This document shows positions 17,961 through 26,418 of a stretch of DNA of 46,293 nucleotides, in pieces. The DNA is from Candidatus Moranbacteria bacterium RIFOXYA12_FULL_35_19 (GTDB taxonomy: Bacteria > Patescibacteriota > Minisyncoccia > Moranbacterales > UBA2206). Position 1 is the stretch's first letter. Each line of letters opens with the position of its first letter. The notes below the pieces were generated by a model, which was not told where the DNA came from, did not search any database, and saw only the letters and a list, made by a program, of their open reading frames with translations. The stretch is from the NCBI GenBank assembly GCA_001784805.1, contig MFSE01000025.1:1-46293 (forward strand), read 5' to 3'. Both the position numbers and the translations under genes were made by a program.

Positions 17961-18117
17961 CCTTACGAATTAAGAACTTTTACCCGCCTCGCGTCGACGA
18001 GCAATCGTCTTTGCGAGTCGAGGCGGGCGAATGTACTAATATGAACTAAGTAGTTTCTTACTGTTTTATTAAATTATTCGTATTTCGTACATTCGTACCG
18101 ATTCGTAATTCGTAAGG
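17961..18117. repeat. nested inverted-repeat element of 157 bp
   Basis: The outer arms CCTTACGAATTAAGAA (17961-17976) and TTCGTAATTCGTAAGG (18102-18117) pair at 15 of 16 positions. Inside are the GC-rich arms CCCGCCTCG (17983-17991) and CGAGGCGGG (18019-18027), which extend inward through CGACGA/TCGTC. The right half has ATTCGTA-type tandem units. The local GC content is far above the surroundings. No coding is seen. It looks like a small palindromic mobile repeat. Confidence 0.75.
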
Positions 18118-21417: not shown

Positions 21418-21489
21418 TCCGCGATAGCTCAATGGTAGAGCAGTTGACTGTTAATCAATTGGTTCCAGGTTCGAGTCCTGGTCGCGGAG
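21418..21489 (+). tRNA. tRNA-Asn (GTT)
   Basis: A 72-nt cloverleaf with acceptor TCCGCGA/TCGCGGA, D arm AGCTCAATGGTAGAGC, anticodon loop CTGTTAA with anticodon GTT, T arm with GGTTCGAGTCC and discriminator G. CCA is not encoded. The 3' part is overlapped on the opposite strand by the last codons of the serine recombinase gene, which marks it as an integration site. Confidence 0.97.
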
Positions 21490-22965
21490 CCTATTACCTG
21501 TTTTGGCATATTCAAGTATCCCCGTAAAGGGGATTTTTGCTTCAAACAGGAGCTTTTTGCCCTCAAGAAAAAAGTTCTGGTGAATAAAATTTAAAAGTTG
21601 CGTTTTTTCCTCAGGTTCAGAACTTATAAATAATTCGTAGGCTTTTTGACTGATATCAAGGATTTTCGATGAAGTAACGAAAAAGTTCTGGTTAGCTTTT
21701 GAATGATCGTCGATTTGAAGCAATAAGTCCTGTTCTTTCACTTTCCACTCATTCATCATCTTGTCAAATATGTCAGTAGTAATTCGCCCATCAAGTCTAT
21801 CCTCATACGCAATTCTATAGCTATCTCTAATTCTTTTTAATTTTCTTTCTAGCGTGGCTATATTTTTCTCGCAATAAGACTGCTCTGCGTCGTGAATGAC
21901 TCTCAAGTCCCTTTTGAGTACTTCGAGCGCTTCAGGGATGAGTTTTAGACCTTTCAGGGAGGATGCAGTTTGCTCAATTAAATCTTCTTCTCTTATCCAA
22001 GTGACATTTTCACAGTTTCCTGAATAATTTGTGCAATGGTAGTATATATATTTTCCTTTTTTAATCTCGGGAGTTATTAAGCACCCGCACTCCTTGCATT
22101 TAATCATTCCTCTAAAAATATAAGGGTTATTGGTTCGCTTGAAATTTTGTTTGTTATATCCTTCTATTACTGATTGAACTTTATCAAATAAATACTTTGA
22201 AATTAGCGGTTCATATTTATGCGGATATAGTTTTCCCTTAACTCTCATCACTCCATAATAAAATGGGTTCTTCAAAATAGTTTCAATCTGACTCGTAACT
22301 ATGGGAACTCCGCTCGGGCGGTTTGTCAGTCCTCTTGCATTCATTTCCTTCATCAATTTTTTCATTGAGTATTTCCCAGAAGCATATAATTCGAATGTTT
22401 TCTTTATTAAAAAATCTCGCTCCTTGTCCGGCACAATATCTTTTTTGTTGTCGGAGAGCGTTATATTCTTGTAGCCAAGATAGGATTTCCCAATCCATTC
22501 GCCATTTCGCAATTTTTGCTCATAGGCTCTTTTTACATTGTCGCTAATTGCATCTGAATAATATTTTGCTAAACCAAGATTTATACCAAAATGAAATTTT
22601 TCCGCAGCGGATATATTTGGTGTGATAACTAAATTATCAGAAACAAAATGCAACTCAATTTTATCTTCCATTGCAAGTTCATACAGAGTAGCTACTCTTT
22701 TATCAAAAACATTTCTGGAAAATCTATCAACCTTATCAAAACAAACTGCAAATTTTTCTTTCGGATGAGATTTTAAATAATTTAGAATTTTATCAAACTC
22801 ATCTCGTTTAGTTTTGTAGGCACTCTCATCAAAACTGAAAATTTCAACTACGGGAAATTCTTTTTGTTTACAATAATTTTTAAGACGAACGAGTTGAGCC
22901 GGAAGTGAATTTCCGGCTTCTTTTTGTTCTTCAGTTGAAACTCTAGCTAAAATTATTGCTTTCAT
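21451..22965 (-). CDS. large serine recombinase (integrase)
   Basis: A 504-aa site-specific recombinase. The resolvase catalytic domain is at 1-150 with Ser10 in IILARVSTEEQ. The recombinase domain follows (about 170-280, with the YASGKYSMKKLMKEMNARG helix), then a zinc ribbon CKECGCLI...YHCTNYSGNC (about 293-318) and a coiled coil (about 365-425). The last residues, RLRDQDSNLEPID, are the antisense translation of the tRNA-Asn 3' half, so the frame was completed by integration into that gene. It is the last gene of a compact unit, 4 bases behind the gene ending at 22970. Confidence 0.95.
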   Translation of the reverse strand: MKAIILARVSTEEQKEAGNSLPAQLVRLKNYCKQKEFPVVEIFSFDESAYKTKRDEFDKILNYLKSHPKEKFAVCFDKVDRFSRNVFDKRVATLYELAMEDKIELHFVSDNLVITPNISAAEKFHFGINLGLAKYYSDAISDNVKRAYEQKLRNGEWIGKSYLGYKNITLSDNKKDIVPDKERDFLIKKTFELYASGKYSMKKLMKEMNARGLTNRPSGVPIVTSQIETILKNPFYYGVMRVKGKLYPHKYEPLISKYLFDKVQSVIEGYNKQNFKRTNNPYIFRGMIKCKECGCLITPEIKKGKYIYYHCTNYSGNCENVTWIREEDLIEQTASSLKGLKLIPEALEVLKRDLRVIHDAEQSYCEKNIATLERKLKRIRDSYRIAYEDRLDGRITTDIFDKMMNEWKVKEQDLLLQIDDHSKANQNFFVTSSKILDISQKAYELFISSEPEEKTQLLNFIHQNFFLEGKKLLFEAKIPFTGILEYAKTGNRLRDQDSNLEPID

Positions 22966-22969
22966 TTTT

Positions 22970-23641
22970 TTAATAAGTAATTATTTTGTTTGTTGTTTCT
23001 GATGTATCATCAATCCCATTTAGGAATATTGTAAATTCGTGCATTTTTGAATTAGCGTTCTTTGTATAGCTTCCGACATAATGCTTACCAACATAATCCA
23101 TTTCTGACTGTGTTGGGTTTTCAAGCATCTTGCCTTGAAGATCGGCTGATTTTTTATCTGTATGCACAAAGACAAAAGCATTTCTTTCATTTTTCAAATC
23201 TTCTCTTAATGTTTCGCCTAAGGCAGTCATATTATCAAAGTTCAGATATTTTGGATCTATAACAATTCGTTCTCCTTTTCCGCCGTTATTAATACTCCAC
23301 TCTAAAACAACTTCGTAAGGTATATTTTTTTTCTCTGGCTGTTGAACTATGAGCGCTTCATCTTTTGCTTTTTGTGTCTGAGTTGGACTGGAAACAGTTG
23401 TCTTTTGGTTTGATGTTTGAGTGCTATCTTGCCCAGTACTCCCAATTGTACCCATTGAAAAAATAATCACAAATGCGGTAGCTATCCATTTTGCCTTGTT
23501 GCTCCATTGTGTTTTTGCCCAAATATACCAAATAACAAAAATTGGCAATATTATAATCGCAACTATTACGCCCCACCAATTTTTATACCATTCTTTTTTC
23601 TGGCTGTTTTGTGCCTCGCCAGTAGGCTGTTGATTTTCCAT
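22970..23641 (-). CDS. membrane-anchored hypothetical protein of the element
   Basis: A 223-aa protein with an N-terminal polar stretch, two TM segments (WWGVIVAIIILPIFVIWYIWA and WIATAFVIIFSMGTIG) and a Thr/Gln-rich linker. A soluble domain follows (about 115-223) containing RIVIDPKYLNFDNMTALGETLREDLKNE. I do not recognise the family. I chose the ATG at 23641; an upstream in-frame GTG at 23686 would overlap the SNase gene. It lies between the nuclease and recombinase genes in one operon. Confidence 0.65.
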   Translation of the reverse strand: MENQQPTGEAQNSQKKEWYKNWWGVIVAIIILPIFVIWYIWAKTQWSNKAKWIATAFVIIFSMGTIGSTGQDSTQTSNQKTTVSSPTQTQKAKDEALIVQQPEKKNIPYEVVLEWSINNGGKGERIVIDPKYLNFDNMTALGETLREDLKNERNAFVFVHTDKKSADLQGKMLENPTQSEMDYVGKHYVGSYTKNANSKMHEFTIFLNGIDDTSETTNKIITY

Positions 23642-23660
23642 TTTTTTAATTATTAAAAAA

Positions 23661-24626
23661 TTATCTCTTAGGCAATCTCCCGCCACTTTTTAAACATTCC
23701 TCGATTGAGTTGTAAGGTGTGAAACTAAGAGTTTTATTATAGTAAGTTGTTCCCGGAGCGTGGCAAATTCCAGTTTTACTTTTTTTCACGACTGATCCGC
23801 TTGAATTATTTGTAGCTGACGAAACTATTTCAGGCGAGCTGTTGCTATCTGCAGATTTTACAGCTACAGCTTTTGTAGTATCACCATTACAAGTGTCAGC
23901 GCTCCATAGTCCTTTTTTATTTTCTCTAGCTTGTTTTTCGGCTTCTTTGAATTCAGTTTGATATTTATATGGATTACTTTGATAAGTATATTCGTGAGCA
24001 TATCCTTCGGCTATCATATATTTATTAAAAAAAGTTCCGTCTTCTAAATAAACATATCGCAAAAGTCTTTTATAGCTATCTCTTTCGTCTTGCGAATTAT
24101 CCGCTTCAATACTTACCATTTTTCCACTTAACATTTCCTTAGCCTTATCGGATGCTTCTTTGCCAAAGCATTGCACTACTTTTCTTGGGTCAACTGTTTC
24201 GGGTGTGTCCATTCCAATAAGTCGTATTCTTTCAATCTTTCCATCCATATCAATATCCAAGGTATCGCCGTCAACAACTCTTGATACCTTAAATAAAACT
24301 TTATTCGTTTGTTCTATTTTTTCTTCTTGCAATTCAGCTACTTGTTCCTCTGTCTTCTGCTCTATTTTGTTTTCACTTTCAGGTTGTGCTTCTTGGGCAT
24401 TTTTATTAAGAACAGTTTCGTTTTTTTGAACATTTTTTTCTTCTTGACTGCTAGAAAAAATACCGAAAAGAACAAAGAAAAATATTACTAAAACAATCAA
24501 AATATTTCTGTGATTTTTATCATAATGCTTGCCTTTGAAAATTAAGGAAAAGAAAGAAGGGAAAAATTCGCCTATTATTAAATAACCAGCAGAAATTAAA
24601 AACAAAATTAAAAATAAATCATCCAT
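23661..24626 (-). CDS. membrane-anchored micrococcal nuclease (SNase)
   Basis: A 321-aa protein with two N-terminal hydrophobic segments (1-30 and 42-58), a Glu/Gln/Lys-rich linker and an SNase domain (about 110-245). VVDGDTLDI, RIRLIGMDTPE with Arg135 and Glu143, and DSYKRLLRYVYL with Arg187 match the catalytic residues of staphylococcal nuclease. The C-terminal motif GICHAPGTTYYNKTLSFTPYNSIEECL is a small Cys-containing module often attached to CPR surface nucleases. It probably degrades external DNA or RNA. It is 4 bases behind the lipoprotein gene. Confidence 0.92.
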   Translation of the reverse strand: MDDLFLILFLISAGYLIIGEFFPSFFSLIFKGKHYDKNHRNILIVLVIFFFVLFGIFSSSQEEKNVQKNETVLNKNAQEAQPESENKIEQKTEEQVAELQEEKIEQTNKVLFKVSRVVDGDTLDIDMDGKIERIRLIGMDTPETVDPRKVVQCFGKEASDKAKEMLSGKMVSIEADNSQDERDSYKRLLRYVYLEDGTFFNKYMIAEGYAHEYTYQSNPYKYQTEFKEAEKQARENKKGLWSADTCNGDTTKAVAVKSADSNSSPEIVSSATNNSSGSVVKKSKTGICHAPGTTYYNKTLSFTPYNSIEECLKSGGRLPKR

Positions 24627-24630
24627 ATTC

Positions 24631-25059
24631 TTATTTTAAAGCATTTTTTAAGTTATCAATAAATTCAGTATCTTTCGAATGGACCACAATTAACAAGGAA
24701 TTGTTTTCGAAAATAATACTATCAGCGGTTTCCATAGTTTCCTTGGCGTTTTTTTTGGCATCTTTTTGTGCTTCGTTATATTGATAAATTTCAACATTAA
24801 TATCATTAATGTTAATCTTCGTTCCATCATAAGCCCCAATCATTTGATAATAGGCTTCATTTTTTTGTCCCGCAGAAAAACCAGCTACTTTTAATTTTTC
24901 TATTGCATTATCAATAGTCTGCGTTTCTTGTTTTTTATCTTCTTGTACAACACTCACGATACTGTCATTTTTTTCAGATGAATTAGTTTGCTTATTTTCA
25001 CAACCAGTCAAAAAGCTAATTGCAAAAATTACTAAAACGATACCTACAATCTTTTTCAT
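24631..25059 (-). CDS. hypothetical lipoprotein
   Basis: A 142-aa protein with a signal peptide and lipobox (ISFLTGC), a polar linker, and a compact C-terminal domain with KLKVAGFSAGQKN and NNSLLIVVHSKDTEFIDNLKNAL. It resembles small lipoproteins of mobile elements. It is the first gene of the unit ending in the recombinase, and the structured RNA at 25090-25262 forms its leader. Confidence 0.72.
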   Translation of the reverse strand: MKKIVGIVLVIFAISFLTGCENKQTNSSEKNDSIVSVVQEDKKQETQTIDNAIEKLKVAGFSAGQKNEAYYQMIGAYDGTKININDINVEIYQYNEAQKDAKKNAKETMETADSIIFENNSLLIVVHSKDTEFIDNLKNALK

Positions 25060-25089
25060 ACTTTTTTATATTAATAATTAATTTTGCTA

Positions 25090-25262
25090 GCTGGAAATAC
25101 AAAGAACTCCCCGCCAGCAGTAATCTTTCGACTACCATATTCCTTTCGAAATATGACCATCCCTGGATACTGAACGAGGAGTTCACTATCAGGGATGGAT
25201 TTTGTGCCATATCCTACAGAAAACTGCAGGGGTTAGGCATAAATTGTTAATTCAATTATGCC
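25090..25262 (-). ncRNA. candidate structured RNA or riboswitch-like leader
   Basis: Six helices tile this stretch almost without gaps. In plus coordinates they are 25090-25118 (GCTGG/CCAGC), 25120-25135 (on the minus strand GTAGTC-GAAA-GATTAC), 25136-25155 (CATATT/AATATG), 25157-25198 (CCATCCCTG/CAGGGATGG with an inner TGAAC/GTTCA), 25213-25230 (CCTGCAG-TTTT-CTGTAGG) and 25236-25262 (GGCATAATTG/AATTTATGCC). The GAAA tetraloop appears only on the minus strand, which is also the direction of the lipoprotein-to-recombinase unit starting at 25059. GAACTCC in the large hairpin can instead pair with GGAGTTC in the last one, giving a possible switch or pseudoknot. No known RNA family is recognised. 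Confidence 0.6.
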
Positions 25263-25380
25263 CTTTTAGCTGATAAAAGTAAAGTAGTGCTTTTCCCCTT
25301 TATTTAAAGTACAAAATGCCTTGTTTTTCAAATACTTAGTGCCTAAAAATGTAATCCAATGCAATCCAATGTTCTCGCCA

Positions 25381-25884
25381 TTAATTGAATATTCCTTTCA
25401 ATTTTTCCCTTAATTCTTCAACCTCTGAGTAGTTATTCTGCATTTCAATTTTCTGCACTGCCTTACCTTCATTACGATCCTGAATATCCTTACTCGCTCC
25501 TAGACGAACTGCGCCCGAATAGCGCTTACTCAAAAGAGCAATGACTGTTGAAACAGCTAGACTATGAGCATTTCGTCGATTGCATATTCCTTCTTTCAAG
25601 CTTTCCTCTGCTATCATCTCACTATAAATTTTATACGCATTGTGCAATTTTCCTTCTGACGATAAAATATTACGCAAAGCAGATGCATTAAAGGATTTTA
25701 TTCTACCAGTCCCGATAATTTTTTTAAATTCTTTTCTAAGTGCATCCGATATCTCATTGTATCCCATACCCCAATTCCTTAATTCTATTAGTCGTATTTC
25801 CCATAGGGTTAAGTTCCTTGTCATTGCTATCCATTGTCGTTGTATATTATTTTTATCTTCTTCCTTCAATTTTAAATAATTCAT
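25381..25884 (-). CDS. hypothetical helical protein of the element
   Basis: A 167-aa, mostly helical, charged protein with LWEIRLIELRNWGMGYNEISDALRKEF, which looks like a helix-turn-helix, and a later basic segment ICNRRNAHSLAVSTVIALLSKRYSGAVRLGASKDIQ. It might be a DNA-binding or terminase-small-subunit-like protein, but I cannot assign a family. It stands upstream of the structured RNA. Confidence 0.6.
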   Translation of the reverse strand: MNYLKLKEEDKNNIQRQWIAMTRNLTLWEIRLIELRNWGMGYNEISDALRKEFKKIIGTGRIKSFNASALRNILSSEGKLHNAYKIYSEMIAEESLKEGICNRRNAHSLAVSTVIALLSKRYSGAVRLGASKDIQDRNEGKAVQKIEMQNNYSEVEELREKLKGIFN

Positions 25885-25998: not shown

Positions 25999-26418
25999 TT
26001 ACTTTTCAATTTGCCAGTATCTGCAAATTAAGTCGTTAATTCTGGCAATATCCCCCTCGCAATAACCTAATAGCCTCAACAGTTTATTTGTATTTACTTT
26101 GAAGTGCCTCTTAGGTGGAATGCCTTTTAACTTAACATCCAAAACTTCTAATCCTCGCCATATTTTTATTGCCCTATCTTGCTCCGATCTTATTAGACAG
26201 GTTTCCTTTTGAAAATCTTTTACCGTTTTATATATATAACCCTCCTTATGACCCTTGCCTAACCAATACAAAAGCTGTGATAAAAATAATCCTGCAATCG
26301 CGCTTTCAGCAAGCTCGCTTAACTCCGTGTTGTAAGCTATTGGTCTTTGTTTCGATAGGTGCAAAATCAGTGAATTAAAACACTTAAATTTTTTACCATT
26401 AATTTCAATGGGTTCCAT
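25999..26418 (-). CDS. replication-type winged-helix protein
   Basis: A 139-aa protein with AIAGLFLSQLLYWLGKGHKEGYIYKTVKDFQKETCLIRSEQDRAIKIWRGLEVLDVKLKGIPPKRHFKVN. This matches the N-terminal winged-helix pattern seen in plasmid and prophage replication-initiation proteins (a SQLLYW helix, a wing after GLT/CLI, then the RHFKVN strand). It is shorter than typical RepA-like proteins, so it may be a remnant or a minimal version. It supports a plasmid- or phage-like origin of the element. Confidence 0.72.
   Translation of the reverse strand: MEPIEINGKKFKCFNSLILHLSKQRPIAYNTELSELAESAIAGLFLSQLLYWLGKGHKEGYIYKTVKDFQKETCLIRSEQDRAIKIWRGLEVLDVKLKGIPPKRHFKVNTNKLLRLLGYCEGDIARINDLICRYWQIEK

Follow-up and report, generated by a model that had tools for sequence, protein, structure and literature searches.

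The window analysed here, a stretch of 46,293 nt from Candidatus Moranbacteria bacterium RIFOXYA12_FULL_35_19, carries on its minus strand, at 25239-25120, a full-length LOOT RNA (Rfam family RF03000). Position and strand, in the window and in homologues, make a well-supported case that LOOT is a cis-acting leader. From the pairing partners found in its sequence we consider it rather probable that this leader serves as an attenuator of a mobile-element cargo operon, acting through an inner segment of its third hairpin (B) that is complementary to a downstream segment (B'') lying directly before a U-tract.

The RNA and its family

The RF03000 match scores 85.4 bits against a gathering threshold of 46.4 (E 7e-15) and covers model positions 1-121 in full; by the gathering-threshold rule for membership, the RNA is a LOOT. 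The Rfam scan gave no other match in 24900-25450. An initial annotation, made from the sequence alone, had recognised no known family at this place, which the Rfam match corrects. The original description of LOOT is reportedly that of Weinberg et al. 2017. The features of the leader, all on the minus strand, are as follows.

25255-25283, minus: candidate sigma-70-like promoter from a promoter scan (-35 TTTACT at 25283-25278, 17-nt spacer, -10 CATAAT at 25260-25255)
25240-25247, minus: ACAATTTA, conserved initial transcribed sequence, corresponding to a start motif in homologues
25120-25239, minus: LOOT RNA core, with covariation in homologues
25205-25239, minus: P1 (25239-25236 with 25208-25205), enclosing the conserved CCUAA and hairpin P2 (25230-25213)
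25157-25198, minus: hairpin P3, with outer 5′ strand A (25198-25187), inner 5′ arm and loop B (25184-25173) and outer 3′ strand A' (25166-25157)
25136-25155, minus: hairpin P4, GAAA tetraloop; 99% paired cells in the homologue alignment
25120-25135, minus: hairpin P5, GAAA tetraloop; from the Rfam alignment, covariation and fold
25104-25115, minus: B'' (GGCGGGGAGUUC), 12 bp complementary to B, beyond the Rfam model
25095-25103, minus: U-tract (UUUGUAUUU) directly after B''
25090-25118, minus: possible local hairpin GCUGG/CCAGC, with B'' in its 5′ arm and loop

LOOT RNAs are marked by conserved CCUAA and AUGG segments, an A-rich joint before P3, helices P1-P5 and GNRA loops on P4 and P5. In the window the two conserved segments are present as UGCCUAAC and AUGGCACAAAA, and the GAAA tetraloop noticed initially on the minus strand occurs twice, on both P4 and P5. 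The minus strand of 25262-25090 has a folding energy of -66.7 kcal/mol. Its 200 dinucleotide shuffles average -40.1 +/- 4.0 (z -6.6), and none of them folds as well. RNA from the plus strand was rejected, since that strand folds less well (z -4.2 against shuffles) and has no Rfam match.

Six helices had been proposed to tile these 173 bases. P2, P3, P4, P5 and the final GCTGG...CCAGC hairpin were retained from that proposal. Its first helix (approximately 25262-25236) overlaps the -10 box at 25260-25255 and the conserved initial transcribed bases 25247-25240, and is therefore probably not part of the RNA as a helix; it was dropped, and its last bases (25239-25236) serve P1 instead. The local hairpin around B'' shows little specificity between copies (32% reach a helix score of 16 or more with their own partner and 12% with swapped partners), so it was rejected as the main conserved feature of this region.

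The family was compared across 156 non-redundant LOOT copies, with gene neighbours scored for 146 on the downstream and 151 on the upstream side. Covariation was assessed in 100 distinct homologues, all from outside the window. Standard pairs fill 88.8% of pair cells compared with 61.1% after shuffling, absolute figures that lean towards the structure because the alignment was fitted to it. Double-sided changes occur in 37 of 38 tested base pairs, although the copies are related, so that neither these nor the repeat counts given below are fully independent events. The pairing signal collapses when partners are slid against each other. The inner three pairs of P1 have approximately 98% paired cells, and the helix A:A' of P3 exchanges all pair types freely, which is unlikely to come from fitting alone. 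The minus-strand frame starting with the AUG at 25210, the coding competitor named in the initial annotation, was rejected: 33 homologues have ACG in place of the AUG, and another 118 reach a stop codon in this frame after 13 codons in the median. Of the checks proposed there, an Rfam scan, a collection of homologous leaders and covariation gave positive results.

The window's genome (0.99 Mb) has a single LOOT. The family occurs in 31 of the 128 genomes of the window's order and in 83 of 379 sampled Patescibacteria genomes (approximately 22%), patchily and with one to seven copies each; none was found in 14 well-known control genomes, and named records with the LOOT P4 signature are nearly all Patescibacteria. 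Two LOOTs (L134 and L140) are in records labelled Woesearchaeota and Lentisphaerae; these are short metagenome contigs that may be mis-binned Patescibacteria or their phages. At one locus (L086; G239:C3:17612-17748 and 17988-18107) a tandem pair of LOOTs is separated by approximately 240 nt, and a third lies at a distance of 9 kb.

Leader position and start-site repeats

The promoter-like site listed above is the only one in 25000-25400; shuffled sequences average 1.5, so the scan alone is not significant. Homologues strengthen the call. Of the 156 copies, 76 have the start motif ACAAYTBA in the 35 nt before LOOT, compared with 1.4 (maximum 4) in shuffles, and homologues aligned on it reveal a TATAAT-like box 7 nt before the motif and a TTG-like box at -35. 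The window transcript probably starts near 25247. With a promoter and start motif just upstream, LOOT therefore probably begins the transcript.

The next downstream gene is on the same strand as LOOT in 137 of 146 loci (94%; p 1.5e-30), at a median of 38 nt beyond the extended model, whereas the upstream gene is on the same strand in 65 of 151, as at random. In the window the start codon of the first gene is 60 nt past LOOT and approximately 35 nt past the U-tract, a gap too short to hold a second complete promoter; the LOOT promoter therefore probably serves the gene as well.

Part of the family bears a further mark of action in cis. Strand A of P3 can recur just before the downstream start codon, and we call this copy A'', counted at a length of at least 8 nt. 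It is absent from most copies but occurs in 31 of 146, mostly 0-6 nt before the ATG, and 15% of copies have a match of 10 nt or more, compared with 0.035% of cross-locus pairs. The repeats comprise approximately two dozen different A sequences and have a direction: A is copied downstream 31 times and upstream four times, and A' is copied once. AAA precedes A'' in 30 of the 31 cases, as it precedes A in LOOT, and stands at the corresponding position in 30 of 112 other loci. Since A recurs at the start site, A' can pair with either A or the start site. No A'' or other start-site copy of its A sequence was found for the window LOOT; a trans regulon of that sequence was accordingly rejected, and A'' is an observation on the family rather than a property of the window. 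At four loci whose LOOTs all have start-site copies (L075, L079, L081 and L088), a same-strand gene of 70-76 aa ends approximately 28 nt upstream of LOOT; the one of the four that was tested, at L088, is MerR/HTH_17-like.

These observations bear on the type 'Gene; sRNA' under which Rfam lists the family. LOOT might be a free sRNA that ends at the U-tract and acts in trans, the downstream gene being a mere neighbour; its own promoter and U-tract-like 3′ end would suit this. We think it unlikely. The same-strand linkage at short distance leaves little room for a second promoter, and the A'' repeats lie in cis at the neighbour's start codon. At the A''-bearing locus L083, the A sequence occurs in its genome (G482) only at A and A'', besides a one-mismatch copy at its own complement, and several LOOTs within one genome carry differing P3 sequences. 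The same-strand leader position and the cis repeats argue instead for a cis leader.

Alternative pairing before the U-tract

The initial annotation had also pointed out that GAACTCC in the large hairpin could pair alternatively with GGAGTTC further on. This pairing is present and longer than claimed, 12 bp in the window (25184-25173 with 25115-25104), and is one case of a family-wide complementarity between B and B'', just past the Rfam model, of 9-21 bp. Paired with their own partner, 76% of copies reach a B:B'' helix score of 18 or more, compared with 9% when partners are swapped between different B types. In 111 copies the five positions that follow B'' (+1 to +5) have T frequencies of 0.59-0.85, falling to approximately 0.25 beyond them. 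The conserved sequence thus runs past RF03000 at the 3′ end, with B'' and the U-tract, as it does at the 5′ end with the start motif.

The B:B'' helix extends into the A strand of P3 or abuts it in 28 of the 111 copies, and in 35 of 111 it has at least 12 bp with a connector of at most 4 nt; both findings argue that the helices are exclusive rather than simultaneous. A nested model puts the P3 and B:B'' states close in energy (median difference 2.4 kcal/mol, quartiles -0.4 and 4.0). The leader therefore has what an attenuator calls for, a stem directly 5′ of a U-tract that competes with an upstream helix, with a structured loop of approximately 60 nt. Two results count against attenuation in the window: the same model favours the P3 state by 4.8 kcal/mol, and a standard short-loop terminator scan found no terminator there. 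Ordinary intrinsic terminators have a short loop, whereas the terminator-like stem of LOOT spans the long structured one.

The fold might also be fixed, with B:B'' as a permanent pseudoknot and control exerted by binding of a protein or metabolite instead of by switching. In many copies B:B'' is 9-11 bp long and its connectors measure 5-9 nt, dimensions that could allow A:A' to form alongside it. We hold such a static arrangement to be quite unlikely, since a subset of copies cannot form both helices fully, a pseudoknot has no need for a U-tract, and the downstream genes have no metabolic theme.

The attenuator that we prefer would work as follows. Transcription would start just upstream of LOOT. 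In one state P3 is intact, B'' is free and the polymerase would read on into the operon; in the other B pairs with B'', and this helix and the U-tract would act as an intrinsic terminator, stopping transcription before the gene. In approximately one-fifth of copies, the window's not among them, the released A' could pair with A'' and cover the ribosome-binding site, giving control in two layers. The choice of state might be made by a factor that recognises the conserved LOOT core, be it a phage or host protein or a ligand, or else by folding kinetics. The benefit may be that cargo genes are held back until the element is established. Tentatively, we propose the full two-layer switch as a possibility: the inner arm of P3 would supply the terminator half that is missing, its outer 5′ strand would imitate the ribosome-binding region, and one rearrangement would thereby silence both transcription and translation. 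If so, element-borne cargo genes would be shut off in this way across Patescibacteria.

Mobile-element setting and known systems

The window operon and its insertion site are made up as follows.

24631-25059, minus: first downstream gene, 142-aa lipoprotein-like protein, no Pfam match
23661-24626, minus: membrane-anchored staphylococcal-nuclease-like protein (Pfam SNase, 7.5e-27)
22970-23686, minus: small membrane protein with a conventional start near 23641 (cluster c1)
21451-22965, minus: serine recombinase (integrase) reading into tRNA-Asn (Pfam Resolvase/Recombinase; PHROG 95 integrase, 1e-76)
21418-21491: tRNA-Asn, intact in the window

The initial suggestion of a structured regulatory RNA leading this lipoprotein-SNase-membrane protein-recombinase unit agrees with the Rfam match, strand linkage, covariation and mutually exclusive pairing. 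Two of the proteins recur behind LOOT elsewhere: SNases are also among the first genes in other loci, and cluster c1 relatives of the small membrane protein directly follow LOOT in others. The recombinase frame ends inside tRNA-Asn read antisense (21451-21491), giving the C-terminus RDQDSNLEPID. Three congeners have other content after tRNA-Asn, with synteny resuming near 30.2 kb, which marks this site as a hot spot for integration; no convincing right-hand attachment repeat of the tRNA-Asn end was found in the window. One congener (L238; G099, contig C26, 5807-6050) has a group I intron (RF00028, 76.9 bits) in the tRNA-Asn anticodon loop, at the equivalent of window 21451/21452. On the other side of LOOT, a replication-initiator-like gene (26002-26418; PHROG 9773, 4e-22) and a weak terminase-small-subunit-like gene (25384-25884; 7e-4) suggest a small prophage, satellite or remnant as the identity of the window element.

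Within the order a serine recombinase lies within 10 kb of 25 of 40 LOOT copies, where approximately 2% would be expected. The RNA had been called possibly element-specific; this holds insofar as recombinases lie close to most copies, but LOOT is distributed across the phylum Patescibacteria. Genes for the large and small terminase subunits, a DNA methylase and a serine integrase adjoin LOOT in several loci, and therefore some LOOT elements are prophages. A general prophage origin was rejected, and we keep the term 'prophage' for loci with terminase genes beside LOOT; a Terminase_6C-type terminase occurs in two of the 128 genomes of the order. A 203-base query found no LOOT match in a phage record collection, and two IMG/VR contigs carry full LOOT matches.

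The genes after LOOT are diverse, including membrane-anchored zinc-ribbon proteins, SNases, DUF2726, DUF4352, methyltransferases and others. Among first genes encoding 100 aa or more, 85 of 123 have an N-terminal hydrophobic segment, compared with 168 of 686 control ORFs. The 137 downstream genes represent 90 Pfam families with no common pathway, which speaks against a classical metabolite riboswitch and against the initial label 'riboswitch-like' in the sense of a metabolite sensor.

Diverse operons, phage and mobile-element genes, compact tetraloop hairpins and a leader position would also fit a processive antitermination element that acts on RNA polymerase in cis. HK022 put and EAR are structured cis RNAs of this kind, located towards the start of phage or long operons; LOOT may be likened to them in general layout. 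Pairing with a downstream U-tract segment is no defining part of these elements, and antitermination by itself leaves both the B/B'' complementarity ending in a U-tract and the A'' copies at start codons unexplained. We judge it distinctly improbable. A DNA-level role of the repeats, as recombination cassette or attachment site, is suggested by the nearby serine recombinases but is very improbable given the compensatory changes throughout, the tetraloops, the upstream promoter and the fixed strand relative to the gene.

LOOT appears in Rfam 14 as one of the metagenomic-based RNAs taken from the ZWD collection (PMC7779021) and in Rfam 15 as one of the families improved with the help of covariation (PMC11701678); Rivas 2020 notes that it is rich in covariation (PMC7657543). 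The passages on LOOT in these sources state no function. The promoter, fixed strand, B'' and U-tract, and start-site copies in a subset turn an orphan RNA catalogued for years into a testable cis switch. Our results suggest extending the Rfam model at the 3′ end and reconsidering its sRNA type. If the attenuator reading is true, LOOT would be a widespread way for the mobile elements of the largely uncultured Patescibacteria to restrain their cargo genes.

Transcription attenuators and riboswitch expression platforms of the intrinsic-terminator type resemble LOOT in their leader position, their mutually exclusive helices and a terminator-like helix followed by a U-tract. LOOT differs from them in that its terminator-like helix takes its 5′ half from an inner hairpin arm approximately 60 nt away, its loci share no pathway and a subset carries a copied P3 strand at the start codon.
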